From Balneolaceae bacterium (GTDB taxonomy: Bacteria; Bacteroidota; Rhodothermia; Balneolales; Balneolaceae), in contig JAEPQE010000002.1 of assembly GCA_017640665.1 (NCBI GenBank), positions 372,001-436,000 on the forward strand: a DNA stretch of 64,000 bases. Direction: 5' to 3'. Each line of letters opens with the position of its first letter. Within the stretch, counting starts at the first letter, position 1. The notes beneath the pieces are model-generated. The model ran no database searches. It was not told the DNA's origin and worked only from the letters and a program-made list of their open reading frames with translations. Positions 44,231 to 63,050 of the stretch are shown here, piece after piece. The position numbers and the translations under genes were made by a program.

Positions 44231-45355
44231 ATGACCGGCTTTCTCTCCAAACTCTGGTTTAATTTTATCCACTCGAATTTTCTGGTCTATAATATCTGCT
44301 GGGAGGATTCGGACGTAGACCGGCATTTATTGCAAATCAATGCTGACACTTCTCTCCTTACCATCACCAGTGCCGGATGTAATGTACTAAATTACCTACT
44401 CGATAACCCAAAATCTGTGCATTGTGTGGATATCAATCCAAAGCAAACAGCACTCTTAGATTTGAAAGTTGCTCTTATCAAGCATGGCAATTATGAGCTG
44501 TTCTTTTCTTTTTTCGGGGATGGAAAAACGGAACAATTCAATAGTGGATATCAGCAGGTAAGGGACTCTCTCTCTCCCGTTTCTAAATCTTTTTGGGATA
44601 AACACATTCACTACTTTCGTCCGAATGGAAAAGGTTTGTTCTATCATGGGGGAAGCGGCTTATTTGCCCGATTTTTGAATCGGGCTATTGATAAAAAGGG
44701 GATCAGAAAATTGGTTAACCAAATTTTATGTGAAGACTCAAAAGACCAAAGAAAAGAACTCCTCGAAGAGATAAAAGAGAAATTATGGTCTGGACCAGAA
44801 CAGAATCTCTGGAAATCTTCCTTCATTTTAAGCCTTGCAGGGGTCCCAAAAAGTCAACGTGAGGCTATTGGAGATATCAACGAATTTATGAAAGAGGTTT
44901 TATATCATATTTTTGTTGCTCAGAAACCGAACAACAACTATTTCTGGAGGGTGTATCTTAAAGGAAAATTCACACAGAATTGCTGCCCGGATTACCTGAA
45001 AGAGAAGAATTTCGCACTGCTTAAATCTAACATTGAAAAGCTTCATATTTCAACCGGAGGGATACATGAATTTCTCGAAACTTCGACTCATAATTTTACT
45101 CATGTTGTACTTCTGGACTATATGGATTGGTTGGTTGGGCATAATGAATCTCAGTTAAAAAAAGACTGGAAGAGGATTCTAAGTCAAACTAATACCGGGC
45201 CAAACATCCTTTTCAGAACAGCTTATGCTAATGCGGATTTTCTTCCTGAATTCACTTTGGAGAAGATGAATCTTGAGCAGATTGATCCAAATTGGATTAA
45301 TCAGAATGATCGGGTTGGAACGTATACCGGAACCTGGGTGGGAAAAGTCCTATGA
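44231..45355 (+). CDS. BtaA-type 3-amino-3-carboxypropyl transferase (DUF3419)
   Basis: The 374-residue protein has the BtaA/DUF3419 pattern: N-I-C-W-E-D-S-D-V-D near residue 22, I-T-S-A-G-C-N-V-L-N-Y-L-L near 43-55, then V-D-I-N-P-K-Q-T-A-L-L-D-L-K, and a later D-Y-M-D-W-L. BtaA moves the 3-amino-3-carboxypropyl group of SAM to diacylglycerol, giving diacylglyceryl-homoserine, the first step of betaine lipid (DGTS) synthesis. The stop overlaps the next start as ATGA, and the next gene is a BtaB-like methyltransferase, which strongly supports the assignment. The symbol is withheld because the family also has other members. Confidence 0.85.
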   Translation: MTGFLSKLWFNFIHSNFLVYNICWEDSDVDRHLLQINADTSLLTITSAGCNVLNYLLDNPKSVHCVDINPKQTALLDLKVALIKHGNYELFFSFFGDGKTEQFNSGYQQVRDSLSPVSKSFWDKHIHYFRPNGKGLFYHGGSGLFARFLNRAIDKKGIRKLVNQILCEDSKDQRKELLEEIKEKLWSGPEQNLWKSSFILSLAGVPKSQREAIGDINEFMKEVLYHIFVAQKPNNNYFWRVYLKGKFTQNCCPDYLKEKNFALLKSNIEKLHISTGGIHEFLETSTHNFTHVVLLDYMDWLVGHNESQLKKDWKRILSQTNTGPNILFRTAYANADFLPEFTLEKMNLEQIDPNWINQNDRVGTYTGTWVGKVL

Positions 45356-45984
45356 TTCCAACGGATATTAAAAGCTACTACCGCCTCCACTCCAAATTCT
45401 ATGATGCTACACGTTGGGTTTTTCTGTTTGGAAGGGATGCCCTCAAAAAGTACTTCCCTGAACTTCCTGATAACCCAAAAATTTTAGATGTTGGATGTGG
45501 TACAGGAAAACATCTGGTACAGCTTCAGAAAAAATACCCCAACGCGGATATTACCGGAATTGATTTATCAGGAGATATGCTCAGCTTCGTTAATCACAAA
45601 AACGTTGCTTCGATAAAGCTGAAAAATGAACTCTATTCTGAAAACTCTTTCAAAGACAATGAGTTTGATCTAATTCTATGTTCCTACTCGCTAACTATGG
45701 TGGATGATCTCAAATCTACCTTTGAAGATATACAGAAGCACCTTAAACCAAATGGATTGGTATTGGTTGTAGATTTTGACTCCACCCTTTTCACATTGTT
45801 TTCAAAATGGATGAAGAAAAATCATGTTTCTTTTGAACCAAACTTATTTAAGCTATTAGATGAAGCTTTTGAAGTTGAAATTAAGAGTACAAGAAAAGCC
45901 TATTTTGGCTTGTATAGCTATTCTATTTTTCTCGGGAAAACTAAAGAAATGTCATTCCTAAAGATAACAGATAACCTGCCATAA
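45352..45984 (+). CDS. BtaB-like SAM-dependent methyltransferase
   Basis: The 210-residue class I methyltransferase has motif I L-D-V-G-C-G-T-G-K-H near residues 42-51, G-I-D-L-S-G-D-M-L near 70-78 and L-C-S-Y-S-L-T-M-V-D-D near 105-115. The early Y-R-L-H-S-K-F-Y-D-A-T-R-W-V-F-L-F-G-R-D segment is typical of lipid N-methyltransferases of the BtaB/PmtA type. It overlaps BtaA by four bases; together they would make DGTS from diacylglycerol by three methylations. Function is inferred from neighbour and motif. Confidence 0.8.
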   Translation: MIPTDIKSYYRLHSKFYDATRWVFLFGRDALKKYFPELPDNPKILDVGCGTGKHLVQLQKKYPNADITGIDLSGDMLSFVNHKNVASIKLKNELYSENSFKDNEFDLILCSYSLTMVDDLKSTFEDIQKHLKPNGLVLVVDFDSTLFTLFSKWMKKNHVSFEPNLFKLLDEAFEVEIKSTRKAYFGLYSYSIFLGKTKEMSFLKITDNLP

Positions 45985-46282: not shown

Positions 46283-48070
46283 TCACTTGTCGTTCGTTGC
46301 TGGAACTAACTGATCTTTATACTGAAGCTCGTACAGCTTTTTATAGATTCCACCTTCCTGTTGAATTAGATCAGCGTGAGCTCCTTCCTCTCTGATTTCT
46401 CCTTTATGCATTACCAGAATTTTATCGGCATGTTGAATGGTAGATAATCGGTGAGCTATTACGATAGAGGTTCGACCTTTCATCATTTTTAGACTGGCTT
46501 CATTTACGAGTGCTTCTGTTTCGGAATCGATACTGGAGGTTGCCTCATCCAAGATTAAAATTTTGGGGTCGAATACCATCGCCCGTACAAAACAAATAAG
46601 CTGGCGTTGTCCCATCGAAAGTGAACTTCCCTGCTTCTTGAGTTTGAAATCATAGGTTTTGGGAAGTTTTTCAATAAACCGGTGCGCTTCTACCTGGTGC
46701 GCTGCTTCTATCACTTTTTCTCTCTTGATGGATTTCTCACCAAGGGTAATGTTATCTATAACTGAACCCGTGAATAATGCATTATCCTGAAGTACCAGTG
46801 AGAAGTATTTACGAAGGTTTTCCAGAGATAACTCTCTGATGTCTATCCCATCCATTCGAATAGTTCCTTTTTCGATATCATAAAATCGAAGAAGAAGGTT
46901 GATGATCGTGGTTTTTCCGGCACCTGTTGCCCCTACTATCGCTACTGATTCGCCCGCACTAGCCTTGAAAGACACATCTTTGAGCACATAATCCTCTCCT
47001 TCATTGTACTTGAACCACACATTCTCAAACTCGATTTCACCTTTGGGATTTTCAATCGTTTTCGGGGATATATTATCTACAACTTTGGTCTCTGTATCTA
47101 ACACGTTAAAAATCCGTTCTGAAGAAGCTAAAGCTGATTGCAGTGTATTAAACTTTTCAGATAGTCCACGGATAGGCATGAAAAACTGTCTTGAGTACTG
47201 AATAAATGCAAGTAATACTCCGAAAGTTACTCCTCCCATTAAAGCCCTTCCCCCACCATACCAGACAATCAAAGCCATAGCAAAACTTGAGAATACTTCT
47301 ACAATAGGCCAGAAAATGGAGAAGTAGAAAATAGTTTCAATATGTGCTTCCCGGTGATCAGCGTTTATATCCTTGAATTTATCATGTTGCTTCTTCTCTC
47401 TGTTAAAAAGCTGAACTACATCCATTCCATTAATATGTTCCTGTACAAATGAATTCAGGTTAGAAATCTGATCTCTCACTTTAAGAAAAGAAACGCGCAC
47501 TTTTTCCTTGAACCAAAAAGTAGCGTAAAATAGGATGGGAAGAATAGCTATTGTAACAAGGCTCAACTCCCAGTTCATGCTAAACATGAAATAAAGTATG
47601 AATACAATCCGGAAAAGGTCTCCGATAATAGCAACGACTCCGTCAGAAAGCAGATTACTTAATGCTTCAACATCACTGGTAGTTCTGGTAATTAGCCGAC
47701 CGATTGGATTCTTATCAAAGAACTGAACATTCAGAGATTGTATTTTCTCGAAGATCGTGTTCCGTAGTGAATACAAAGTTCCCTGGCCAAACCATCGTGT
47801 CAAATAGGTGTTTATCATTTGCAGGACAAACTCTCCCAACAGAGCTCCAAAAAGGAGCATAATGATATAAGTTAATCCCTCATAATCACCTTCCGCGATA
47901 TAATCATCCACCGCTAGTTGAGTTAGTTTTGGACGAACGGTACCCAGAAAAGACGCACTAAGCGTAAGCAGGACAGCCAGTATTACATACCAACGGTAGG
48001 GTTTAACAAAAAAGTAAAGCCGTCGAATCAGTTTTCTGTCAACGGCTTTTTTATCTTTCGATGTACTCAC
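46283..48070 (-). CDS. ABC exporter half (TM + NBD), consensus Walker B partner
   Basis: The 595-residue exporter has six TM helices (1-320) and an NBD with Walker A G-A-T-G-A-G-K-T-T near 378-386, signature L-S-M-G-Q-R-Q, Walker B I-L-I-L-D-E-A-T-S (catalytic Glu present) and H-loop I-V-I-A-H-R. The signature has Met in place of Gly. It starts with GTG at 48070, 10 bases after the RNase Z-like stop. With the 49481-51274 gene (degenerate Walker B) it forms the two halves of a BmrC/BmrD or TM287/288-type heterodimer. Substrate unknown; lipid or drug export is likely for this class. Confidence 0.9.
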   Translation of the reverse strand: MSTSKDKKAVDRKLIRRLYFFVKPYRWYVILAVLLTLSASFLGTVRPKLTQLAVDDYIAEGDYEGLTYIIMLLFGALLGEFVLQMINTYLTRWFGQGTLYSLRNTIFEKIQSLNVQFFDKNPIGRLITRTTSDVEALSNLLSDGVVAIIGDLFRIVFILYFMFSMNWELSLVTIAILPILFYATFWFKEKVRVSFLKVRDQISNLNSFVQEHINGMDVVQLFNREKKQHDKFKDINADHREAHIETIFYFSIFWPIVEVFSSFAMALIVWYGGGRALMGGVTFGVLLAFIQYSRQFFMPIRGLSEKFNTLQSALASSERIFNVLDTETKVVDNISPKTIENPKGEIEFENVWFKYNEGEDYVLKDVSFKASAGESVAIVGATGAGKTTIINLLLRFYDIEKGTIRMDGIDIRELSLENLRKYFSLVLQDNALFTGSVIDNITLGEKSIKREKVIEAAHQVEAHRFIEKLPKTYDFKLKKQGSSLSMGQRQLICFVRAMVFDPKILILDEATSSIDSETEALVNEASLKMMKGRTSIVIAHRLSTIQHADKILVMHKGEIREEGAHADLIQQEGGIYKKLYELQYKDQLVPATNDK

Positions 48071-48080
48071 ACAAATTTAT

Positions 48081-49418
48081 TTAGAATCTATCGAAATCAT
48101 CATAAGATGTTCTCGGTGTAATCGTTTTCTTTGGCTGTGAATCGTTGTCCTCACTGCGACCACGATCACGATTGTAAGAACTGCTTCCATAAGAACGCCG
48201 TTCTCCACTACCACGATTGTATCGGTCATCCCGGTTTCGGTCTCCACTCCCTGAATTATAGCGGTTATTACTTCTGTAACCACCTCCACCACGGTTATCT
48301 CGATTATAATTTCCTCCACCTCGATTGTCCCTGTTATAGTTTCCACCGCCGCTTCCTCTTCTGGATCGGAAATTCTTTCCTCCTCTGCTTTGCCCCCGGT
48401 TGTCTCTTCTTCCCGAAGAATGAGAAGAATATCCACCTGAAGAGGAGTTCTTAGTAAGATCTTTAATCTCTACTTTTGGTTTAATTATACCACGTTCATG
48501 AGTCGGGTCTGTGAAGATTGGACGAAGCTCATTCGCAAGCCAGGTTGGATAAAATCCATCACGTGCTTCTTTAAGCAATACGTGCAAATTGGTGTATCTG
48601 GCTGAGAAGTGACCAATTACCAATAACTTAGTTTGGGCTTCTGTTGCTACTCGTGCGGCATCCCCCGCAGTCGAGTGACCTGTCTCCTTCGCCTTATCTG
48701 CTAACTGATTACCAAAAGTAGCTTCATGGTAAAGGATGTTAGTGTTCATTGCGAGCTTAACTGCATTCGGGCAATACTCAGTATCGGATACATAAGCAAA
48801 GCTATCCCCCGGACGAGCATGCCCAACTATTTCATAAGCTTCAATTTCGGTACCGTCATCCAGCTTGATATTATTTCCGGCTTTCAGATCTTTAAACTGC
48901 TGATCGTCTGTAATACCTAGTTTCTCTGCTTTTTCAGCATCCACTTTACCTGGTTTATCTTTTTCCTGAAAGCGGAATCCGAGGCAAAATCTTCGGTGCT
49001 TCAACGGTCGTGCTTCAACATAATAGTCGTCAGCATCAACTACCCGGGTTACTTCTTCTTTTTCATCAACTTCACTGTAGTTGATATCGAACCCAAGCTG
49101 AACTCCAGAGAAGTTAAGGTTCCATTCGACAAATTCTTTGATTCCTTTTGGTCCTGCGATAGTAAGTTCCTTGTCTCTGCGTTGGAGTTGCAGAGTAGAA
49201 AGCAAACCCATCAATCCTGAATAGTGATCCACATCAAAATGAGAGATAAATATCGCATCAATTTTTGAACGTTTTAACCCAGCCTGAAGCATACTCATCT
49301 GAGCATTTTCGCCGCAATCGAAGAGGAATACACTTCCTTCTCTCCAAAGGGCTACTGCTGGCAAATGCCGAACTGCGGTTGGTGTTGCTGAGGCTATTCC
49401 TAATGGTACTACAATCAT
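48081..49418 (-). CDS. RNase Z-like metallo-beta-lactamase protein with Arg/Gly-rich tail
   Basis: Starting at the ATG at 49418 (GGGAG upstream) gives 445 residues. Residues 1-320 are an RNase Z-type metallo-beta-lactamase: F-I-S-H60-F-D62-V-D64-H65, S-D-T-E-Y-C, H-E-A-T-F, G-H-S-T-A-G and I-G-H-F-S. The usual second His of H-x-H-x-D-H is Asp62. Residues about 325-445 are a low-complexity tail of G, R, N, Y, S and D with two copies of G-G-G-N-Y-N-R-D-N-R and several R-G-G: an RNA-binding disordered tail. RNase Z removes tRNA 3' trailers. It lies between the two exporter genes (62 and 10 bases). Confidence 0.85.
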   Translation of the reverse strand: MIVVPLGIASATPTAVRHLPAVALWREGSVFLFDCGENAQMSMLQAGLKRSKIDAIFISHFDVDHYSGLMGLLSTLQLQRRDKELTIAGPKGIKEFVEWNLNFSGVQLGFDINYSEVDEKEEVTRVVDADDYYVEARPLKHRRFCLGFRFQEKDKPGKVDAEKAEKLGITDDQQFKDLKAGNNIKLDDGTEIEAYEIVGHARPGDSFAYVSDTEYCPNAVKLAMNTNILYHEATFGNQLADKAKETGHSTAGDAARVATEAQTKLLVIGHFSARYTNLHVLLKEARDGFYPTWLANELRPIFTDPTHERGIIKPKVEIKDLTKNSSSGGYSSHSSGRRDNRGQSRGGKNFRSRRGSGGGNYNRDNRGGGNYNRDNRGGGGYRSNNRYNSGSGDRNRDDRYNRGSGERRSYGSSSYNRDRGRSEDNDSQPKKTITPRTSYDDFDRF

Positions 49419-49480
49419 TGTTATTCTCCCGTTTTTCGAGGGCTGTTGCCTGTCAAACAATATGCCCGATCGATTTTAAC

Positions 49481-51274
49481 TTATATTTCTGCTAATTCTT
49501 GTTCTAGTAATTGTTTGGTGTACATGGCCTTATAGTGGCCGTCTTTTGATAAAAGTTCTTCGTGAGTTCCGTATTCAGAAATCTTTCCATCTTCCAAGTA
49601 ATAGATGATATCGGCATCCTTAATAGTGGATATTCTGTGACTAATCATGATGGTTGTCCGCCCACCCAGCTCTTCTTGTAACTGTTTTAAAATCGCGTCT
49701 TCTGTTTTTGTATCAATCGCACTAAGCGAATCGTCAAATATTAAAATCCCGGGATTTTTTATCAGAGCTCTTGCGATGGCTGTCCTTTGTTTTTGTCCTC
49801 CTGATAACGTGATACCCCGCTCGCCGAGCATAGTCTTAAATTTTTTCTCAAAATCCAAAATATTCTCTTTTACCTGAGCTTTTTCGGCTGCGGATTCTAT
49901 CTGTTCATCGTTAGCATCTTCTACTCCAAACGCAATATTCTCACCGATAGTGTCAGAAAATAAAAAGGTATCCTGAGGAACAAAGCCAATAGCCTTCCGA
50001 ATGTTTTCTACAGAATGCTTTCTCAAATCAATTCCATCCAACAAAATAGCACCTACGGTAGGATCGAACAACCGGGGAATCAGGTTAATCAGACTCGTTT
50101 TTCCGGACCCCGTTCTTCCAACTATTGCAATATTTTGTCCCGCCTCAATTTTCAGATTCAGATCTTTGATGACAAATTCATCGGAATCAGGATATTTGAA
50201 GGAAACATTCCTGAATTCGATCTCTCCTTTTATTTCCTGAGTGATGGCATCTTCTTTATCTGATATCTCAATCGGGTAGTCTAAAATCTCTTTGATTCTG
50301 TACCATGAGGCCAATGACTTCTGAAAACGATTGGTTGTATACCCCAAAGCAGCAACCGGCCAGATTAAATAAGCAACATAAATCAAAAATTCAGCGATGT
50401 TCCCAACGGTGAGTGTGCCTTCGATAATCATATTCCCGCCCTGCCAGATCACTATAATGAGTGAAATTCCAATGAGGAAATTAAGCCCCGGGTGGAACAA
50501 CGATTCGATTAAGTCGAGGCGGAGTTTTTTCTTCCTATAATCTTCACTGAGATCGTTGAATTTGGTTTGTTCGTAATCAAGCCGGTTATAAGCTTTGATC
50601 AAACGGATACTTGAAAAACTTTCTTTAGCCTGACCTGCAAGCCTTGAATACTGTTCCTGGATTATGATAGAGTGCTTATGGATGTATCCGGTAATCCAAT
50701 ATGCAAAAATGGAAAGCAATGGTAACGGGATAAGTGCCCAAACCATTAATTCTTTGTTTACCAGATACATCATCGTTATCACAAAACCTGCACGAGTAAC
50801 CGTATTGATACTGTACATGATAACCGGACCGTAATATTCACGGACTTTATTCACATCTTCCGTGGCTCGTACATATACTTCACCTTGTGAGTACTTTTCA
50901 TAAAATCGTTGAGGAAGTGCCATCAGTTTTTCGACAATCTGATTACGCATATCAAACTCAACTTTGCGGGAAGAAACGATGAGTGTCTGACGTGTTAGGA
51001 AGAGAAAAATCCCGTATAAAGCTACAGTTCCGACCAGATAGAGAGAGTTCAACCCTAGAATGTGTCCTGCTTCACTTGAAAAAAGAGTTGTAATCAAATC
51101 ATCAGGAACGTTGTAATCCTGATCAGAAAGGTTCTCAACACGGTCTATGGTTCGGCGGATTAAAACAGGAATCCAGACCAAAAAGAAATTCGCAGCTGTA
51201 AGAAACAATGCCCCTAGTATAACAGCGACTTTATACTTTTTTAGATATTTATTTAGGTCTTTAAGTGCCCCCAC
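49481..51274 (-). CDS. ABC exporter half with degenerate Walker B
   Basis: The 597-residue exporter has six TM helices and an NBD with Walker A G-R-T-G-S-G-K-T-S near residue 380, a consensus signature L-S-G-G-Q-K-Q-R, but Walker B I-L-I-F-D-D-S-L-S in which Asp replaces the catalytic Glu, and H-loop I-M-I-S-H-R. Asp at that position marks the non-hydrolysing site of heterodimeric exporters (as in BmrC and TM287). Its partner at 46283 has Glu but an altered signature, so the two defects meet in the same composite site. GTG start at 51274, with GGAAGAG just upstream. Confidence 0.9.
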   Translation of the reverse strand: MGALKDLNKYLKKYKVAVILGALFLTAANFFLVWIPVLIRRTIDRVENLSDQDYNVPDDLITTLFSSEAGHILGLNSLYLVGTVALYGIFLFLTRQTLIVSSRKVEFDMRNQIVEKLMALPQRFYEKYSQGEVYVRATEDVNKVREYYGPVIMYSINTVTRAGFVITMMYLVNKELMVWALIPLPLLSIFAYWITGYIHKHSIIIQEQYSRLAGQAKESFSSIRLIKAYNRLDYEQTKFNDLSEDYRKKKLRLDLIESLFHPGLNFLIGISLIIVIWQGGNMIIEGTLTVGNIAEFLIYVAYLIWPVAALGYTTNRFQKSLASWYRIKEILDYPIEISDKEDAITQEIKGEIEFRNVSFKYPDSDEFVIKDLNLKIEAGQNIAIVGRTGSGKTSLINLIPRLFDPTVGAILLDGIDLRKHSVENIRKAIGFVPQDTFLFSDTIGENIAFGVEDANDEQIESAAEKAQVKENILDFEKKFKTMLGERGITLSGGQKQRTAIARALIKNPGILIFDDSLSAIDTKTEDAILKQLQEELGGRTTIMISHRISTIKDADIIYYLEDGKISEYGTHEELLSKDGHYKAMYTKQLLEQELAEI

Positions 51275-53105: not shown

Positions 53106-56100
53106 ATGGAATCGAAACGCTTACCATTATATGGGATGCTATTCCTATTTCTATCTGTCTTGGGTTCAAACTCTGTTCTCGCCCAAGATGGTGTTTTCAC
53201 CAGTAGCTTCGTAACTCCAGATTCTGGAGCTATAGTAAGCAACGCTAATACAACCTTTGAATTAGCAATAGATAATGCAGCCTTAACCGATAGTCTGGAT
53301 TATATAGATATTCATGTATTTCCACAGGGAGATACATTATCAGCAGTAATACTTACAACACTTGGTACACCAGGTACATTAAATGAACTTGCAACTAATC
53401 AAGCGTTTACAGCAAATGGACTTGGAATAGAAACTGCTTTAGGTGGTGCTGATCCAGGTAATTTCTATACAATTAGAGCACAAGCTTACACGGATGATGA
53501 CGGAGTAGGAGGAGGAGCTGTAACTCTGAACGGAGAAGTATATGTTGACGTCTATGTAGACAATGATGCTCCTACAGTTTCTTCGAATGGAATGATCAAT
53601 TATTCAGTAGCCAACGAACCCAATATTGCTGGGGATACAGTATCATTTAATGTTACGGATGACTTTTTATCATTTTCGAATAATGATTTTGAGTTAGAAT
53701 TAAATGTATATGATCAGGCCACCAATCTTGATACACTCTTGAGTGTCTCTGGTTCTATCAGTGATCTATTTACCGATGGTGCTCTGGTTGATACAGTTAT
53801 GAACGACTCTCTTGACTACGATTTCATTTTTGTAGTCGACCTTACTTCACTGGTACCAAACTCATCAACAAATGAGATAATTGAGTTGAACGTAACAGAT
53901 GGAGCAGACAATACTGGAAGTGATACACAAAATGTAACTATCAATGACAACACCGCCCCTACTGTAGATTTACTCTCTATTGACGGTGCCAATCCTGCAA
54001 ATGATGTAATTCCTAATTCGATTTCAGGGTATAATACTTTTGTATTCGATGTCCGGGATACCTATTTGAGTTCATCAGTATTAGACACTCTTTACAATCT
54101 GGACCTGCAAGTTGACACTGAAAACTTTACAGGTACGATTTCTGAACTTGAAAGTGAAGGAATGCTAACCGTTGTAGGTGATACATCATTTATTTTTACA
54201 GTAAATGTTAAGCCTTATTCCCAAGCTATTACTAGTGTTAATCTTGATGTTACCGATGCTGCAGGGAATACTGGTGTGGATAATAACTTTGTTAATATTG
54301 TTGATTTCGTAACGGATTCATACTTCTTAATGCAACCTTATCCTCATACTTCTTTCAATCAGGATCTGGGACTTAATATAGATCTGGAGCCCGGAAACGA
54401 AGCAAATGTAACAGGAGCTTTAGTAGAAGTTTCTTCAACTTCTGATTTCTCTGTTATAGATACCAGCTACACCTTTGATGATGGTTCTGTATTTGATTTG
54501 GTGAACCATGATGTACCTGAAGATTTGGTAGAAGGAATGTATTACGTACGTGCTACTCTCGATCTTGATGAAGGCGGAGAGGAAATTACAAGAACAAATA
54601 TTGTTTTTTATGATACTACCGCTCCTTCAATCACCATAGACCTTTTGGAACCTCAGGAGTTTATGGGAACTGAGTATCTTGTAGGTACGAGCCCGATTCA
54701 ATTTAACACTGATGATCCGGATATCTTTAGCATGGATGTAAGTGTTCAGAGAATTCTTCAGGATTCTACGTCACGCTTTTTTGGTCTCGTAACTTTGTCT
54801 CATTATCCTTTCCGTTTTGACTTTAACTCCAGAAACTATGATGGTGATTTACCTGAGGAGTTATTTGATGGAACGGTTGTTTTCCGGGTTATTACAACAG
54901 ATAATACAGGAAACACTTCCCCTCCTATTTACTTCCCTGTAAATGTTGACAATGAGACCCCGGATTATATTGTATCTGAAATTAATGGCATAGACGTGAT
55001 TGCTTCAGAATATGACGAAGCTCTGCATCCACCAGTATTTGCGGGCGATACACTTGAAATGAAGTTCAAGTACTTTGCTGACGATTTTGGTGATGCGGAA
55101 TTTGAATTAGACTATGGTCCATTTACTGTCGAAGGTTGGATCGCAGATAATACTGACAGTGTGCTAACGGTTGAATTCTACCTTCCTGATAGTGATACCG
55201 ATTACGACAATGTTGACCTGACACCAAACGATGATGAGTTAAGCGTTACCTTTACAGATGTATTTGGTAATGGTGATGGTAACTACATCGGTACACCTAA
55301 TGTTGGGCATCTAAAAATCTACAATAACAGCACTCCTTATGTGTATTTTGATGAAGATCCAATGGGTGAACTTGTAAGAGATACATTATGGTTAGACCTC
55401 GATTGGGATAATTTTGAATTACTTGATAGTGCTGCTATACAATATGCTACTGTTGATGGTGAAGATACTACTGCATTCACAACTATAACTACGCTTTCTG
55501 CTGATAGTTTAGATGAATACAGCACCTTCGTAATGCCGACTGTAGATTTTGCAGATGGCTGGTATGTATTAAGGACTATCACCTATGGGTACGAGACAGA
55601 CCGTTTTGATGGTGATATGGTTGAGATAGAAAGCGATCTGGATGATATTATCGATTTTAGAATAGATAATACTTTCGATGAGTTTGTAACTATTCTGGAA
55701 CAAGCTGATAACACCCTACATGGAAGCGAAGATCTCGAGCTTCTTGCAACCCATGACGGTGATGCTTACGGAGCACTATTCCAGGGTAAATTCGTTCATA
55801 CGAATCCTATGGAAGAAGAAGCCCTGGATACGTCCTGGGTTACTCTTGACTCTGTAGTAACAGAATGGGATGAAGGGGTTTTCAGAATGACTATGGATGA
55901 AGATGATCTCGAAGCTTTCTTCAACATAGCTAATGTCGAAGGCATATTCACCTTCCGTGCTGTTGGTCTTGACTCCGCTGGAATCTGGCAAGACATTTCC
56001 GGTAACAGAGATGATGAGGGAACGGTTGCAACAATCATGGTAGAATATGATGATATCTCTCCTAACGGTACATTTACTATTAACGGTATTCTTACTGAAT

Positions 56101-58820
56101 ACGAAGGTGGTAGTTCAAATGAGTCGAATTCAGGGGTAAATATCAATTCATGGGGCGCTCAGAACTTTGATAATTTCAACGTTTGGGATGGAACCGTATC
56201 GATTGGTACTCATCTTTTCGAGGAAGAAAACGACTATAACAGAACGGTTTTTGAAATCAGAAGATATGCAGCCCGTGAACCTGGACAACTTGCTACATTC
56301 AGGTCATCACAAGATCAAACTCTTGCAACTCTTTCAGATGTTAACGGCGAGTTCGATCTGGATATGAGTGATTTAGACGCCGGAGCTGTATACAAACTGG
56401 TTATGTATATCTTTGATGACTTTGGTAACCGTTATGAGGCAGGAAATCTTTACTTCACTCCTGTTGGCCCTAGAGCTCATGTAACAGGATTAAGTGACGA
56501 ACATGGAGAACTATTCTTCCAAGCCTCTCCTCATACCCAGAGCGTTGTTCTTGAAGTCTCCACTGATGGTACTACCTTTGAACAGGTATCCTGGTTAGAT
56601 AATGATGATTTCAGTTATATAACTGTAGGTTCTTATGATGGATATAAGCATGGAATGCTGAATCTTGAAGATCTGCAACTTCCATTAGGTGATCTTACTT
56701 TCAGGCTTACTGCAGGTGAACACGATGAATGGGATGAATCTGAGATCAGAAATTCAACAACTATTCTCATAAATCACTCCGAGTCTAGCGATGTAAGAGC
56801 AAAAAGTGGCCCAGAGGTAACTCAAAATCAGGGAATCTTTACCCCTGCTACCAGCTCAGATATTGACCTGACTCTGTATAGAGAAAAAGGAGAAATCGAT
56901 GACATCAGGGTTGAGATAACACCGGTAAATACCAACGATAATCTCACTTTATTTTTATTAGCTGATGAGAATACTTTCTCAACACTTAATAGCCTTGAGT
57001 ATGGATTCTTCCCTCGCTGGGGATGGTATAATTATTCAGAATGGTTTGGAGTAGCTAATCCACTTGAAGCCATTGATGGAAATGTACTTGGATTCAAATC
57101 GGATAGCTATTCTATTGAACTAAACAATAATGTTAATATTCTGAGTGGTGGAGTGTTTTACGCTTATGCTACTACTGTCCTCCCATCAGGAGAAACCATT
57201 ATGACTCGTGAGCGAATCGAAGTAAACCGTATAGCTGCTGCGAACGGTGGATCTGTAAGCTCACCAGATGGCAACTTCACGCTGAATGTTGAGGAGAATA
57301 CACTTGAAAAGAATGCTAATGTATTTATTGAGCAGGATCCTTCCCGATTGTTCTTTACTCACAATAGTGAAGCAGAATACGGGCAAATAGGTACTGCCTA
57401 TTATCTTAATTCATTTACTAACGGAGCTGTCAGAAACGGAAGAAGAGTTAATTTTGAAATCGCTTTCGATCCGGCAAGCATTCCTGATTTGAATGAAAGC
57501 GGCTCTAATATAGATGAGATCGAAGCTCTTTGTGTAGGTCATACCAGTGTTTCAGGCACAGAAATTCTTTTTGAAGATATACTCGAAAAAGAAATAGATA
57601 CTGAAAACAATGTGGTGCGGTTTACTATGACTTATCTCCCCTATTTTAATGCCCGACGAATAGCTCTGGTGCTAGAAGGAGCCGTAGTAAATAATCCAGG
57701 ATCGATTACAGTTAGAAATACATCACTTCCTGAGGATAAAATCTACGTAAGTGGAGACCATTATCTGTCTATTACAGTCTCTGATGATAAAGTATTCAGT
57801 TTTGAAAATTACTTTATGCTTATCGATGGTTCTCTTGTCGAGTATGGCACGGAAGATCCGGATGGACTCGAAAATGGTCTTAAATTAGAGGCTAGTGATA
57901 ATATCAATGGATTAGAACTGTCTGAAGGAAGACATACCGTACGTTGGGTAATAATCAATAACAATGGTAACCGACTGGATGTTTCTTACGACTTCATCGT
58001 CGATAAGAAAGTACCAGTTATCTCTCAGAATGCTCAATTTGTAAACAAGATTGAAGCAGGTACTAAGAATACACTCAGTTTTATAATTCAGGATCGTATG
58101 GCTGGTGGCGAACCAGGCAGCGGTGTTGGACTAGACGACATATTTGTTGATGTATATCTGGTTGAGCCTTCTCAAACTGTTGTATACATAGACTCAGCAG
58201 GAACCTTGATTACTGAACAAGACATCTTTAAAAGATACTTCAAACGATACAGTATTGGAGACTTTATTGTAGGTGAAGGAAGTACTATGGACTCTCTGTC
58301 AATAGCTTTTGACATTGTGTTCAATCAAGTGCTTCAAGTAACTGGTTATGAATTTATCGTTCATGACGGTAGTTACGTATTTGATGAAGATGATTATGAG
58401 GAGTGTGAAATATTATGTCGTTCCGATGAATTCGATATTTCACAATACGATGGAAACGGCGTGTATGATATGGCCGGAAATCAATCTAATGCCGTCTCCT
58501 TTACTGTAGGAATCAATCCTTTAGCTACTTCAACCGAAAGCGATGGAGTAGTTCCTGAAAACTTTCATCTTGATCAAAACTATCCGAACCCATTCAATCC
58601 TTCTACTACCATCCAGTATGGTATACCAGAAGCGAGTGAAGTGACGATTAAAGTATTTAATATGCTTGGAAGAGAAGTAGCTACTCTTGTAAATGAGAAG
58701 AAATCAGCCGGTACCTATCAGGCAGTGTTTGATGCTTCCCAGCTTGCAAGTGGAATGTACATCTACAGAATTGTTGCTGGAAGCTTTGTACAAACCAAAA
58801 AGCTAATGCTGATCAAATAA
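53106..58820 (+). CDS. Giant T9SS-exported surface protein with Ig/cadherin-like repeats
   Basis: The 1904-residue protein has a signal peptide (to about residue 26, S-V-L-A-Q) and repeating beta-sandwich domains marked by D-N-D-A-P-T-V, N-D-N-T-A-P-T-V, D-T-T-A-P-S-I, D-N-E-T-P-D-Y, D-D-I-S-P-N-G and V-D-K-K-V-P-V-I boundaries, with a very acidic (D/E/N-rich), Cys-poor composition typical of marine surface adhesins. The last 85 residues are a type A sorting domain (D-Q-N-Y-P-N-P-F-N-P-S-T-T, F-N-M-L-G-R-E-V-A-T-L, ends M-L-I-K). It probably forms a surface fibre or adhesin. RBS GAGGAG is 6 bases before the ATG. Terminates in a strong bidirectional hairpin. Confidence 0.88.
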   Translation: MESKRLPLYGMLFLFLSVLGSNSVLAQDGVFTSSFVTPDSGAIVSNANTTFELAIDNAALTDSLDYIDIHVFPQGDTLSAVILTTLGTPGTLNELATNQAFTANGLGIETALGGADPGNFYTIRAQAYTDDDGVGGGAVTLNGEVYVDVYVDNDAPTVSSNGMINYSVANEPNIAGDTVSFNVTDDFLSFSNNDFELELNVYDQATNLDTLLSVSGSISDLFTDGALVDTVMNDSLDYDFIFVVDLTSLVPNSSTNEIIELNVTDGADNTGSDTQNVTINDNTAPTVDLLSIDGANPANDVIPNSISGYNTFVFDVRDTYLSSSVLDTLYNLDLQVDTENFTGTISELESEGMLTVVGDTSFIFTVNVKPYSQAITSVNLDVTDAAGNTGVDNNFVNIVDFVTDSYFLMQPYPHTSFNQDLGLNIDLEPGNEANVTGALVEVSSTSDFSVIDTSYTFDDGSVFDLVNHDVPEDLVEGMYYVRATLDLDEGGEEITRTNIVFYDTTAPSITIDLLEPQEFMGTEYLVGTSPIQFNTDDPDIFSMDVSVQRILQDSTSRFFGLVTLSHYPFRFDFNSRNYDGDLPEELFDGTVVFRVITTDNTGNTSPPIYFPVNVDNETPDYIVSEINGIDVIASEYDEALHPPVFAGDTLEMKFKYFADDFGDAEFELDYGPFTVEGWIADNTDSVLTVEFYLPDSDTDYDNVDLTPNDDELSVTFTDVFGNGDGNYIGTPNVGHLKIYNNSTPYVYFDEDPMGELVRDTLWLDLDWDNFELLDSAAIQYATVDGEDTTAFTTITTLSADSLDEYSTFVMPTVDFADGWYVLRTITYGYETDRFDGDMVEIESDLDDIIDFRIDNTFDEFVTILEQADNTLHGSEDLELLATHDGDAYGALFQGKFVHTNPMEEEALDTSWVTLDSVVTEWDEGVFRMTMDEDDLEAFFNIANVEGIFTFRAVGLDSAGIWQDISGNRDDEGTVATIMVEYDDISPNGTFTINGILTEYEGGSSNESNSGVNINSWGAQNFDNFNVWDGTVSIGTHLFEEENDYNRTVFEIRRYAAREPGQLATFRSSQDQTLATLSDVNGEFDLDMSDLDAGAVYKLVMYIFDDFGNRYEAGNLYFTPVGPRAHVTGLSDEHGELFFQASPHTQSVVLEVSTDGTTFEQVSWLDNDDFSYITVGSYDGYKHGMLNLEDLQLPLGDLTFRLTAGEHDEWDESEIRNSTTILINHSESSDVRAKSGPEVTQNQGIFTPATSSDIDLTLYREKGEIDDIRVEITPVNTNDNLTLFLLADENTFSTLNSLEYGFFPRWGWYNYSEWFGVANPLEAIDGNVLGFKSDSYSIELNNNVNILSGGVFYAYATTVLPSGETIMTRERIEVNRIAAANGGSVSSPDGNFTLNVEENTLEKNANVFIEQDPSRLFFTHNSEAEYGQIGTAYYLNSFTNGAVRNGRRVNFEIAFDPASIPDLNESGSNIDEIEALCVGHTSVSGTEILFEDILEKEIDTENNVVRFTMTYLPYFNARRIALVLEGAVVNNPGSITVRNTSLPEDKIYVSGDHYLSITVSDDKVFSFENYFMLIDGSLVEYGTEDPDGLENGLKLEASDNINGLELSEGRHTVRWVIINNNGNRLDVSYDFIVDKKVPVISQNAQFVNKIEAGTKNTLSFIIQDRMAGGEPGSGVGLDDIFVDVYLVEPSQTVVYIDSAGTLITEQDIFKRYFKRYSIGDFIVGEGSTMDSLSIAFDIVFNQVLQVTGYEFIVHDGSYVFDEDDYEECEILCRSDEFDISQYDGNGVYDMAGNQSNAVSFTVGINPLATSTESDGVVPENFHLDQNYPNPFNPSTTIQYGIPEASEVTIKVFNMLGREVATLVNEKKSAGTYQAVFDASQLASGMYIYRIVAGSFVQTKKLMLIK

Positions 58821-58911: not shown

Positions 58912-60231
58912 TTATTCATTCACAGCATCTCGATCTAAAAACTCATCATATAACTGTGAGTGTCTGCTTACCATTGGAATTTTATATCCTTTTATGAATA
59001 CCTGCTCAATTTGAGTTACAGGCTCAAAAGGATCTCCATCAGCGATAAATAAATTGGCTTGCTTTCCAACTTCGATAGAACCAACTAAATCAGCAATACC
59101 GAAGATTTCTGCCGGATTTATGGTTACGGCTTTTAACGCCTCTTCCCTACCTAATCCGTAAGCAGCTGCATAACCAGCTTCAAAGGAAAGATTTCGAACG
59201 TTTTCAATCTCATCGGAAATGATAGCTACTTTTACCCCTGCTTTGTGAAGAGCCCCGGCATTTTCATAAGGCCGATGTACATGATCGTAATCCCGAACCG
59301 GCAGATACAAAGATTTAACCAGGCAGGGGATTCCTGCCTCTGCTATTTCATCCGCTACACGCCAGCCTTCCTGAACGTTAATAAAAATGACATTGAGTTC
59401 GGCATTCTTTTCATCTGTCGCCCATTCCAGTGCCTTCAAAATGTCTTTCTCGCGAGAAACATCAACCAAAACAGGAGTTTCTCCCCGAACAGTTGCCCGC
59501 ATTGCTTCTAAGCGGATATCTTTGTCAGGTTGAGTTTTACCATTCGGATTAGATTCGAATTCGGACATCATCGCATCATAAAAACGGGCTTTATCAAGCT
59601 TATCATTAAGTGTCTTCAGCTCTTCTTCAAATGCTTCCTTGATTTCTTTATCACTTCGGTTATCAAAGAAACCTCTTCGCATTGATGAAGGCCATTCTAC
59701 CACCATAGCTCCGGTAGCATCAATAGCCATAGAATCGGGAGAATAACCCCAAAGATCCATAATGGAAGCCTGACCAGCGATCAATCCGTTAGAGGGTGCA
59801 GTTACAACATGTGTTATACCAGTTACCCTGGTAACAGGTATAGCGGCACTGTGTGGGTTGAATGCTGTAAATGCCAGCACATTTGGATTATAATCCCCCA
59901 CTTCGCGACTATCTACGGTAACTGCAACGGCATTTACTTCAACAAGACCTAATTGCGAACCTGAATCCATAAAGCCCGGATAAACTTCTTTTCCGGAAGC
60001 ATCAATTACAGTGTAACCTTCCGGTATTTGAATGTTCCTACCTACTGCGGTTATTTTTTCGCCTTCGATAAGCACCGTGGCATTTTCAAGCGTTCCATTG
60101 GTGATTGTGTAGACGGTTCCTCCAGTAATTGCAATTTTGCCAAATTCCGGTTTTTCTGTGATTTGTGCCTGAGCAAAGTTAAGACTGAGCGTTACCAACA
60201 CAAACAATATAGTTTTCATGTATTTCTTCAT
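58912..60231 (-). CDS. Exported amidohydrolase-family protein, metal ligands lost
   Basis: The 439-residue protein has a signal peptide (to A-Q-A-Q) and the amidohydrolase small beta-sandwich plus TIM barrel: A-V-G-R-N-I, I-D-A-S-G-K-E-V-Y-P-G-F, and the C-terminal N-P-A-E-I-F-G-I-A-D-L-V-G-S-I-E-V-G-K-Q-A. At the usual HxH of strand 1 it has G91-S-Q93, so two metal ligands are missing. Barrel residues further on (I-I-S-D-E near the last strand) keep Asp. It is the last of three tandem paralogues on one strand, with 13-base gaps. It may be a non-catalytic subunit or bind another ligand. Confidence 0.85.
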   Translation of the reverse strand: MKKYMKTILFVLVTLSLNFAQAQITEKPEFGKIAITGGTVYTITNGTLENATVLIEGEKITAVGRNIQIPEGYTVIDASGKEVYPGFMDSGSQLGLVEVNAVAVTVDSREVGDYNPNVLAFTAFNPHSAAIPVTRVTGITHVVTAPSNGLIAGQASIMDLWGYSPDSMAIDATGAMVVEWPSSMRRGFFDNRSDKEIKEAFEEELKTLNDKLDKARFYDAMMSEFESNPNGKTQPDKDIRLEAMRATVRGETPVLVDVSREKDILKALEWATDEKNAELNVIFINVQEGWRVADEIAEAGIPCLVKSLYLPVRDYDHVHRPYENAGALHKAGVKVAIISDEIENVRNLSFEAGYAAAYGLGREEALKAVTINPAEIFGIADLVGSIEVGKQANLFIADGDPFEPVTQIEQVFIKGYKIPMVSRHSQLYDEFLDRDAVNE

Positions 60232-60244
60232 TTTTTACTCTCCT

Positions 60245-61633
60245 TTATCGTTGTGTTGTTTCTTCAAGCAGGTTGAAAGCGCCTTCCATGCATGCGTCGG
60301 CTTTTCTTCCAGAGATGATTTCTCCAAATGCTGCGCCATCTTCAAAGCTTTCATTCGGATTCACTGAAATCCTCATATCTGCCTGATCTTCCTCAAGATC
60401 AAAGTATTTCATACCGTCAATGTACGTCTGTTCTACTTTGCTGTAGATACTGATCGGATGACCACTCCAGATTACTAGATCCCCATCTTTCCCTTCTTCA
60501 AGACTGCCAACCCGGTCTTCAATTCCCAATTGAATGGCAGGGTTGATGGTAATCATCTTTAAGGCATCTTCCACAGAAGTCTGTCCATAGCGGATCGTTT
60601 TCCCGGTTTCGTGATTGAGGTGGCGAATAAGTTCATCGCTATCGCTGTTAATGCTGTTTGTTACTCCATTTTCGTTCAAAATAGTAGCATTGTAAGCTGT
60701 TGAGTAATATACCTCAAACTTATAGGCCCACCAGTCTGCAAAGATCGAAGTATGTGCGCCATTTTTGGCTAATTCAGGCGCTACCTTAAATGCTTCATTT
60801 GCATGCTGGAACGTATAGTTTTTAACCCCGTAGTCGTTGAATACACGCATCAGCATCAGGATTTCATCAGCACGGTAGGAATGACAATGAACAAGGATTT
60901 CTCCATCAATAATATCGCTCAAAACTTCCAGTCTAAGATTTTTAGCAACAGGAACCGGGGGTGTTCCTCGTCCTCTGCGGTCGAAATTGGCTTTAGCTGT
61001 CAAATACTCTTCCCGGTTACGTTTATAGTCTATTGCTGCATCAAAATGCTCGCGGATTACTTGTTCTACCGCCATTCGTGTTCGGGGATGAATCCCGCTT
61101 CCCTGACCATGAACACGGGTAGGGTTTTCACCTAAAGCGAACTTAATCGTTCTTGGAGCTCCGTCCATTCTCATTCCTTCCTGCCCGGCACCATATCGGA
61201 GTTTGAGCGTCTCACCCTGACCTCCAATTACGTTTGCAGAGCCGTGCATTAAGTGAATAGATGTTGTTCCACCCGCAATTGCCCGATAGATAGAAATGTC
61301 TGTTGGATTAACAGACTCTTCCATTGTTACTTCTGAGGTAACCGGGTTTCTCGATTCGTTCGTACTCACAGTATTCAGATGTGAGTGAGCATCAATGATA
61401 CCCGGTGATATAAATTTGCCGGTTGCATCAATCGTCATTACACCGCGCGGAGCTGATAAATTTTCTCCGATTCGGGCAATTTTCCCATCCCTGATCAGGA
61501 TATCTGTGTTTTCAAGTTCTCCATTTGTAATGGTAACCAATGTTCCATTTTTGATTAGCACCGAACCAGTTTCCTGAGCCTGAGTGTATCCAACCAATAA
61601 AAGAAGGAGAAGTAATGTTAGTAGTTTTTTCAT
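60245..61633 (-). CDS. Exported amidohydrolase, metal-binding HxH intact
   Basis: The 462-residue protein has a signal peptide (to about residue 20), I-S-P-G-I-I-D-A-H83-S-H85 with intact HxH, then V-H-C-H-S-Y-R-A-D near 250, F-Q-H-A-N near 280 and N-S-D-S-D near 345 with the catalytic Asp. This is the complete imidazolonepropionase/iso-Asp peptidase-like amidohydrolase metal set. It would hydrolyse a cyclic amide or dipeptide outside the cytoplasm. Its two neighbours, same family, lack HxH, suggesting a multi-subunit assembly with this one as the catalytic member. Confidence 0.9.
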   Translation of the reverse strand: MKKLLTLLLLLLLVGYTQAQETGSVLIKNGTLVTITNGELENTDILIRDGKIARIGENLSAPRGVMTIDATGKFISPGIIDAHSHLNTVSTNESRNPVTSEVTMEESVNPTDISIYRAIAGGTTSIHLMHGSANVIGGQGETLKLRYGAGQEGMRMDGAPRTIKFALGENPTRVHGQGSGIHPRTRMAVEQVIREHFDAAIDYKRNREEYLTAKANFDRRGRGTPPVPVAKNLRLEVLSDIIDGEILVHCHSYRADEILMLMRVFNDYGVKNYTFQHANEAFKVAPELAKNGAHTSIFADWWAYKFEVYYSTAYNATILNENGVTNSINSDSDELIRHLNHETGKTIRYGQTSVEDALKMITINPAIQLGIEDRVGSLEEGKDGDLVIWSGHPISIYSKVEQTYIDGMKYFDLEEDQADMRISVNPNESFEDGAAFGEIISGRKADACMEGAFNLLEETTQR

Positions 61634-61648
61634 GAGTTAGTTCTCCTG

Positions 61649-62959
61649 TTAAAATTCGTAAGTGGTTCCGTTGCTTACACTGTACACAGCCTTAGCTTTT
61701 TCTTCTGTAAAAGGCTTATCAAATACTGTGAAGCTGGCATTTTTTCCTGTCTCCAGACTTCCAAAACTTTGTTGAATCCCTAAAATCCGGGCAGTATTGG
61801 TCGTCATCAACTTAACCAGATCTTCTTCGGTAAGCCCTCCTTCATCAAGCAATGCCTTGATTGCTTTTGAGGCGTCTTTAAGTTCCATCCCATGAGATGA
61901 ATATCCGACCATTACTCCTGCATCCAGCAACATTTTGATGTTTTTAGCTTCTGCCATCCATGCTTCCAGTTGACGATCCCTGAATAGTTGCTCCTCTTCG
62001 GTAACTTCTTCCATGTCTTCTTTCTTGGAAGTGTCATTTTTAGCCGCATACCATTCCGGGGCTTCCGAAATATCAATACTCGCAAGTACAGGAATATTTC
62101 GCTCTTTTAATTCATCAGCTTTGGCGTAGGCTTCCTTTCCTGAAACAATGACGATATCAAAGCCAAATTCATCCTGATATAAAAATAACCGCTCGATATC
62201 TTCTTTATCATCAACGGTGAAGAACAATGGCTGAGATTTGTTTAACAGTGGAAACATCGCTTCCAGTACTTCATTCCTTTCCGGAGCGGGCATTTCAGGA
62301 TTACCGGACTGATATTGAATATGCGTTTGCAAGGCTTCTGCATCGTACATAACCTGCCGAAATTTCGCCATAATTCCCATTTGAGTAGATGGGTAAACTC
62401 GTCCTCTTGCTCTTTGATAACTCCCATGAATACCTATTGAGTTAGTAAATAAGCCTTCCTTTACTTGATCGGGTGATAATGTGAACACCTCAACTTGTCC
62501 TGAAACCATATAACCTTCCAAACCTAATGCAGCGGTTGTAAATCCTGCCTTCATTGCGGCTTCAAAGTTTTTATCTGCTTCGAGGTGTTGAGAAGGTATT
62601 CTTTCCGGCTGAACTCCAGCCAAATTGTAAGGGGCTTCTCCCGGACTCGAAGGATCTTCAGGATCCCTTGGTTGCGAAGGACTTCCCCATGTTGTAAATC
62701 CATCGATAAAGCCAGGATAAAGATGCATTTCGTTATTTGCATCGGTTACATAGGCATCGAATGGAACAGTAACATTAGTACCAATGGCTTCGATGATTCC
62801 ATCCCGCCAGACAATAGTAGCGGATTCTGTTACAGAACCATCGGTATTATGGATAGTGATGTTTGAAATTGCTTGCGCCGGAGTTTCCTGAGCTGAAAGT
62901 AGTTGACCCGAAGAAACCAAGATGACCAGCGCAGCCAATACTCGAAATTTACGTTTCAT
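61649..62959 (-). CDS. Exported amidohydrolase-family protein, HxH absent
   Basis: The protein is read from the ATG at 62959; a TTG six codons upstream is possible. It has a signal peptide (to L-L-S-A-Q) and the family frame L-Y-P-G-F-I-D86-G-F88-T-T90 with Phe and Thr in place of HxH, and the C-terminal A-R-I-L-G-I-Q-Q-S-F-G-S-L-E-T-G-K-N-A. An acidic segment (E-D-M-E-E-V-T-E-E-E-Q) sits near residue 315. Like the 58912 gene it seems to be a pseudoenzyme. First gene of the three-gene operon. Confidence 0.85.
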   Translation of the reverse strand: MKRKFRVLAALVILVSSGQLLSAQETPAQAISNITIHNTDGSVTESATIVWRDGIIEAIGTNVTVPFDAYVTDANNEMHLYPGFIDGFTTWGSPSQPRDPEDPSSPGEAPYNLAGVQPERIPSQHLEADKNFEAAMKAGFTTAALGLEGYMVSGQVEVFTLSPDQVKEGLFTNSIGIHGSYQRARGRVYPSTQMGIMAKFRQVMYDAEALQTHIQYQSGNPEMPAPERNEVLEAMFPLLNKSQPLFFTVDDKEDIERLFLYQDEFGFDIVIVSGKEAYAKADELKERNIPVLASIDISEAPEWYAAKNDTSKKEDMEEVTEEEQLFRDRQLEAWMAEAKNIKMLLDAGVMVGYSSHGMELKDASKAIKALLDEGGLTEEDLVKLMTTNTARILGIQQSFGSLETGKNASFTVFDKPFTEEKAKAVYSVSNGTTYEF

Positions 62960-63050
62960 ATAAGCTGTTTTTTTCAAGGTTAAAGTAGAATGAAGAAACA
63001 GCTAAAAAGAGTCTAAAAAAAGAGTGGATTTATAAAATGACTAATTCTAA

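Follow-up and report, generated by a model that had tools for sequence, protein, structure and literature searches.

An RNase Z with an aspartate in its HxHxDH motif and a disordered basic tail in Balneolales

RNase Z and related proteins altered at the second metal ligand

In bacteria, tRNAs whose genes do not encode the CCA end are expected to be matured by a 3′ endonuclease, followed by addition of CCA. The metals used by RNase Z are debated: Zn2+ is found in the structures, and Mn2+ or Mg2+ often gives the highest activity. In PNGM-1, a protein of the metallo-beta-lactamase (MBL) fold with tRNase Z activity, the residue equivalent to the second His of the HxHxDH motif is His93. It binds Zn1, and this site is only weakly occupied in the mutant H93A (PMC7404133), whose RNase activity is low or absent with Mg2+ and is partly restored by Mn2+ (PMC6882493). 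Rescue by Mn2+ is likewise quoted for the T. maritima tRNase Z in PMC6882493, and residual RNase activity is mentioned for the H65A mutant of B. subtilis RNase Z (PMC12663964). The ligand mutants studied are mostly substitutions to Ala and not to Asp. Natural replacements are found in other MBL-fold families: flavodiiron proteins carry Glu at the second-ligand position and bind iron, the C. difficile ligands being His83, Glu85, Asp87 and His88 (PMC6033852), and a Y2-AiiA-type lactonase carries Asp for the second His, giving HxDxDH (PMC6146095).

We analyzed a window of 64,000 nucleotides (the whole stretch of DNA examined) from a genome of the Balneolaceae. Their order, Balneolales, is one of marine and salt-lake bacteria, and no paper treating Balneolota and RNase Z together was found in the literature searched. 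The rnz gene of this window (48081..49418, minus strand) starts with ATG, has its stop codon at 48081-48083 and encodes a protein of 445 aa. With 312.9 bits, the product passes the curated equivalog cut-off of the RNase Z model TIGR02651 (292.95), and the PDB sequences closest to the Balneolales query are the E. coli and B. subtilis enzymes. For the catalytic core (residues 1-313; 48480..49418, minus strand), AlphaFold2 gave pLDDT values that mostly exceed 80 as far as residue 310 or so. Foldseek matched the model to B. subtilis RNase Z 2fk6 with an E-value of 2.3e-32 and a TM-score on target of 0.88 (0.88-0.89 for 2fk6/4gcw). The fold of solved bacterial RNase Z was matched including the inserted arm, whose pLDDT is about 81-90.

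Compared to solved bacterial RNase Z/RNase BN (B. subtilis 1y44, 2fk6 and 4gcw; E. coli ElaC 2cbn), the Balneolales enzyme has the same fold (TM 0.84-0.91 on target) at 31-35% identity, the same TIGR02651 model and all other ligands and catalytic residues. It differs by HxDxDH in place of HxHxDH, by Asn38 in place of Gly, and by its tail, which has 85 residues or more and ends in a conserved peptide. We propose, with a probability of roughly 0.6, that it is a working RNase Z with a retuned first metal site (probably Mn2+/Mg2+), a basic tail that would bind RNA and a C-terminal peptide that would serve for docking.

Single origin and fixation of Asp62 in Balneolales

The original prediction placed an Asp at the second His of HxHxDH, with all other ligands present, and it was correct in both respects, as it was in the coordinates of the gene. 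The metal motif (49224..49241, minus strand) reads H60-F61-D62-V63-D64-H65 (HFDVDH), Asp62 aligning with the site-1 ligand His65 of B. subtilis RNase Z, while H60, D64, H65, H141, D212, H231, H248 and H270 are invariant in 105/105 aligned sequences from within and outside the order. We compared 65 distinct Balneolales sequences with 40 from outside, of which 20 belong to other orders of the same class and 20 to the rest of the phylum. All 65 Balneolales proteins have Asp at position 62 and all 40 outsiders have His; the absence of Asp62 outside the order covers these 40 same-phylum sequences and the enzymes of known structure from E. coli and B. subtilis. Since the strict HxHxDH pattern is absent, HxDxDH being found in 65/65, we class the protein as an altered variant of orthologous descent rather than as a canonical HxHxDH RNase Z.

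The core was scanned for positions at least 80% conserved on each side yet differing between the order and the outside. Only two emerged: 62 and 38. The latter is Asn in 65/65 Balneolales sequences (DCGEN for DCGEG; 49305..49307, minus strand), co-diagnostic with Asp62, against Gly in 39 and Ala in one of the 40 outsiders. Asp62 has a single origin and is fixed throughout the clade: a core tree, for which column 62 was masked, has the Asp group on one side of a branch (support 100), and one change suffices for the state of residue 62. HxDxDH was also found in 80/80 named loci of the genome collection, including Balneola, Gracilimonas, Rhodohalobacter and Fodinibius/Aliifodinibius, a count which is biased because one of the two search patterns was an Asp-containing peptide; the fair comparison is that of 65 with 40 sequences. 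Genus names come from a separate contig collection, the whole-genome set being labelled by kinship ranks. Loss of the exosite was rejected as a further clade marker: the GP-type motif of the arm is also missing in sister orders, so its loss does not track Asp62.

Within 46283..51274, rnz is flanked on each side by one half of a heterodimeric ABC exporter resembling TmrAB. The upstream half (49481..51274, minus strand), whose nearest solved bacterial half-transporter is TmrB, is a conserved neighbor in the order and the class. The downstream half (46283..48070, minus strand; nearest solved half-transporter TmrA) starts 10 nt past the rnz stop, the median gap being 12 nt over 76 loci of the order. 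Both neighbors are present in 74/80 named Balneolales loci, the remainder being mostly cut by contig ends. Among ten genomes sampled from the class's other orders, nine show the same ABC-rnz-ABC arrangement around an RNase Z that is canonical and has no tail; in the tenth, only the downstream ABC half lies beside rnz. One genome of another class has the arrangement too, but the three others of the phylum that were sampled do not.

This common slot makes the altered Balneolales enzyme and the canonical sister-order enzyme orthologues, and the Balneolales protein is an orthologue of bacterial RNase Z of the ElaC/RNase BN type. The sister-order proteins (L092-L111) share 37-52% identity with it but carry an HLHGDH-type motif, Gly38 (Ala in one) and 0-16 residues past the core. 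As the altered enzyme occupies the ancestral slot, Asp62/Asn38 and the tail arose later, on the stem of Balneolales. The ancestor of the order would have undergone two linked events, retuning of the active site and gain of the tail. The neighborhood, the co-change at Asn38 and the conserved C-terminal peptide described below go beyond what had been predicted.

Other features of the window were recorded on either side of this locus. A DUF3419 protein gene followed by a small methyltransferase gene, overlapping by a few bases (44231..45984), resembles a btaA/btaB pair of betaine-lipid synthesis. A 1904-aa protein (53106..58820) ends in a Por secretion-system sorting domain and otherwise matches no Pfam family above cut-off. 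Three adjoining amidohydrolase-like genes (58912..62977, minus strand) are apparently tandem paralogues, the one tested being Amidohydro_1.

tRNA 3′ processing and the first metal site

A second, canonical rnz that would do the tRNA job, envisaged in the original prediction, was rejected for the source genome: it has one RNase Z, and its other MBL-fold matches reach at most 36.9 bits against the cut-off of 292.95. RNase Z was found in 83/83 near-complete Balneolales genomes, and almost all of these had one match each; genome G413, with two full-length matches, is 7% contaminated. In the same class, a number of near-complete genomes from families f7, f10 and f54 (e.g. G070, G134 and G376-G380) had no match to RNase Z at an E-value of 1e-20.

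The encoded CCA is missing from 28 of the 30 tRNA genes examined in the source genome (L132-L161), which requires a 3′ endonuclease before CCA addition. Given that rnz encodes the sole RNase Z, its product is almost certainly the working tRNA 3′-processing enzyme of its genome, and as such it would cleave tRNA precursors to mature their 3′ ends. Single copy, invariant ligands, Asp64 and His248, and the CCA-less tRNA genes together make loss of function unlikely. We nevertheless considered that tRNA processing had been lost in favor of another role, such as deAMPylation or cleavage of unstructured RNA, with another nuclease maturing tRNA. In favor of this, a ligand of site 1 is changed, Mg2+ supports little or no activity in the corresponding Ala mutants, and deAMPylation has been reported as a second activity of RNase Z (PMC12663964). 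Against this stand not only the sole copy, the tRNA genes and the invariant catalytic Asp and His, but also TIGR02651 matches above cut-off in 117 Balneolales genomes, and we hold such a change of role to be very improbable.

A shift of the cleavage site to a position after C74, with tRNA genes encoding C74 without the full CCA, was likewise examined. All 30 tRNA genes of the source genome have C at +1 (C74) and only two have the full CCA, as this idea would have it. The same C74 without full CCA is, however, seen in relatives with canonical HxHxDH (L287-L316; sister-order and Bacteroidia genomes) and so does not track Asp62. The shift was rejected, its probability being close to negligible; C74 without CCA appears to be phylum-wide and unrelated to Asp62.

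How would a working RNase Z accommodate Asp62? The position altered is that of PNGM-1 H93A and B. subtilis H65A (2fk6), but these are laboratory Ala mutants with a weakened site 1 and little activity, whereas Balneolales carries a natural, fixed Asp. Flavodiiron proteins, also of the MBL fold, have a carboxylate at the second ligand of their HxExDH motif, the position where Asp62 is placed by alignment; they differ in that it is Glu and not Asp, and in being di-iron O2/NO reductases with a flavodoxin domain, not nucleases. No flavodoxin domain was found by a domain search of the Balneolales protein. The Y2-AiiA-type enzyme has the same natural HxDxDH but is a lactonase, not an RNase Z. From PNGM-1, B. 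subtilis H65A and the flavodiiron proteins we infer that Asp62 would be a working carboxylate ligand in a site 1 suited to a harder metal.

Retuning would thus consist of the replacement of the second His of HxHxDH by Asp62 together with Gly38Asn, all other ligands and the catalytic Asp64 and His248 staying in place. Asp62 would still bind metal, and a carboxylate-richer site 1 would favor Mn2+ or Mg2+ (possibly Fe2+) over Zn2+. By analogy with the proteins above, a changed metal preference, also raised in the original prediction, is plausible. Asn38, located in the loop past the conserved Asp34, is likely a second-shell adjustment. Asp being shorter than Glu or His, site 1 may also be weak rather than retuned.

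The disordered tail and its C-terminal peptide

Past the core, residues 314-445 (48084..48479, minus strand) form a disordered basic tail present in all members of the order, with AlphaFold2 pLDDT below 50 at residues 314-437 and 439-445. From about residue 320 its composition is 17% G, 18% R, 16% S, 12% N and 7% Y. A G/R/N/Y/S-rich tail of about 120 residues with two tandem GGGNYNRDNR copies had been announced, and both exact copies are present, encoded by a 30-bp tandem repeat (48283..48344, minus strand; 2.1 copies, TRF score 75). Equally, the tail and Asp62 are retained in close relatives, the latter in 65/65 sequences and the former order-wide. The number of residues past aligned position 313 has a median of 108 in the order (85-235 in proteins uncut by a contig end), compared to medians of 0 to 5 and a maximum of 16 outside. 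Net charge was positive in 44/44 tails measured. A semi-conserved basic patch, NFRSRR/FRxRK (48354..48374, minus strand), has F350 and R353 conserved at 90% or more in alignment A1, and a FRxRK-like patch was matched in 39 of the 44 tails.

One part of the original prediction is not supported as it stood: the RGG label of the tail. The repeat content varies from family to family, and composition ranges across Balneolales from R/G/N-rich to K/S-rich. Repeated RGG/RG failed as a conserved property: the tail is RG-rich in the source genus but K/S-rich in many relatives, several members having only 0-3 RG/GR dipeptides, so that an RGG-motif model fails for the clade. What is conserved is the C-terminal peptide. 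These observations bear on the possibility that the tail is an RGG-type driver of condensates, tying tRNA maturation to an RNP body, in the manner of the disordered C-terminus of RNase E in BR-bodies. Such a role would suit the R/G/N/Y-rich tails of the source genus and of other families, and a low-complexity basic tail on a ribonuclease, scaffolding tails of this kind being known for RNase E. RNase E and the BR-body scaffolds resemble the Balneolales protein in that a ribonuclease carries a disordered tail of basic character, with short motifs that are conserved; they differ in that enzyme and tail are unrelated, and the Balneolales tail is known from its predicted disorder and basic net charge. 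The many K/S-rich tails with almost no RG speak against condensate formation, as does a conserved part that is a short terminal peptide, suggestive of specific docking. A sequence search of the source genome found no other protein with a similar tail. We therefore consider a condensate driver rather unlikely.

The conserved C-terminal peptide is TITPRTSYDDFDRF (residues 432-445; 48084..48125, minus strand); the conserved end proper comprises the last ~13 residues, ITPRTPFDDFDRF. The terminal pattern [DN]R[FL] is found in 64/65 Balneolales proteins, the sole exception being cut by a contig end, and in 0/40 proteins from outside. In 35 aligned C-terminal ends, codon positions 1 and 2 showed near-zero entropy for most residues, compared to 0.8-1.9 bits at position 3. 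Third positions thus vary while residues are fixed, which indicates selection acting on the peptide: it is under protein-level constraint.

Other explanations for this conservation were set aside. Overlap with the downstream gene was rejected, given the median gap of 12 nt, a start after the rnz stop in most cases and the free third positions. Of 38 genomes, 32 contained a single match to a DNA pattern for the peptide end, and a reversed-pattern control gave none; a genome-wide tag was rejected, with one pattern match per genome, at rnz where both could be placed. Folding back of the peptide on the core found no support in two AlphaFold2 models of two proteins, models which do not speak to a partner. 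In the Balneola-like genus g17 (L206-L210, L255), the end diverges to SSYRDQDRF, with tail and Asp62 kept; a docking motif would then tolerate change in that genus.

The peptide and the tail also bear on a neutral history, according to which Asp62 is tolerated, two zinc ions and the function are unchanged, and drift has kept the tail as a low-complexity extension that the protein could do without. The middle of the tail evolves fast, with variable composition and slippage-like repeats, and the remaining core is that of an ordinary RNase Z, as drift would have it. But both Asp62 and Asn38 occur without exception in 65/65 sequences, and the peptide is kept at the protein level across the order beyond 85-235 variable residues; neither looks neutral, and we judge this history distinctly unlikely.

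We thus return to a working RNase Z with retuned site and docking tail. The simplest reading of the peptide, by analogy with other disordered ribonuclease tails, is a linear motif for a partner. The tail would serve as a flexible tether that binds RNA and is free to drift in composition, from R/G/N-rich in this protein to K/S-rich in others, and it would present ITPRTPFDDFDRF to a putative partner. More tentatively, and with appreciable doubt, a switch from Zn to Mn (or Fe/Mg) through H62D/G38N, combined with tethering of tail and peptide to a dedicated partner, could amount to an undescribed bacterial tRNA-maturation assembly.

A natural, order-wide exchange of a ligand, accompanied by only one further change and found in the sole RNase Z, offers a clean experiment on the RNase Z metal question. 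Similarly, a tail with a strictly conserved terminal peptide predicts a partner of tRNA maturation across the whole order, and the SSYRDQDRF end of g17 provides a natural test of the peptide's binding target. The Balneolales RNase Z is in this way a natural test of how such enzymes change metals and partners.
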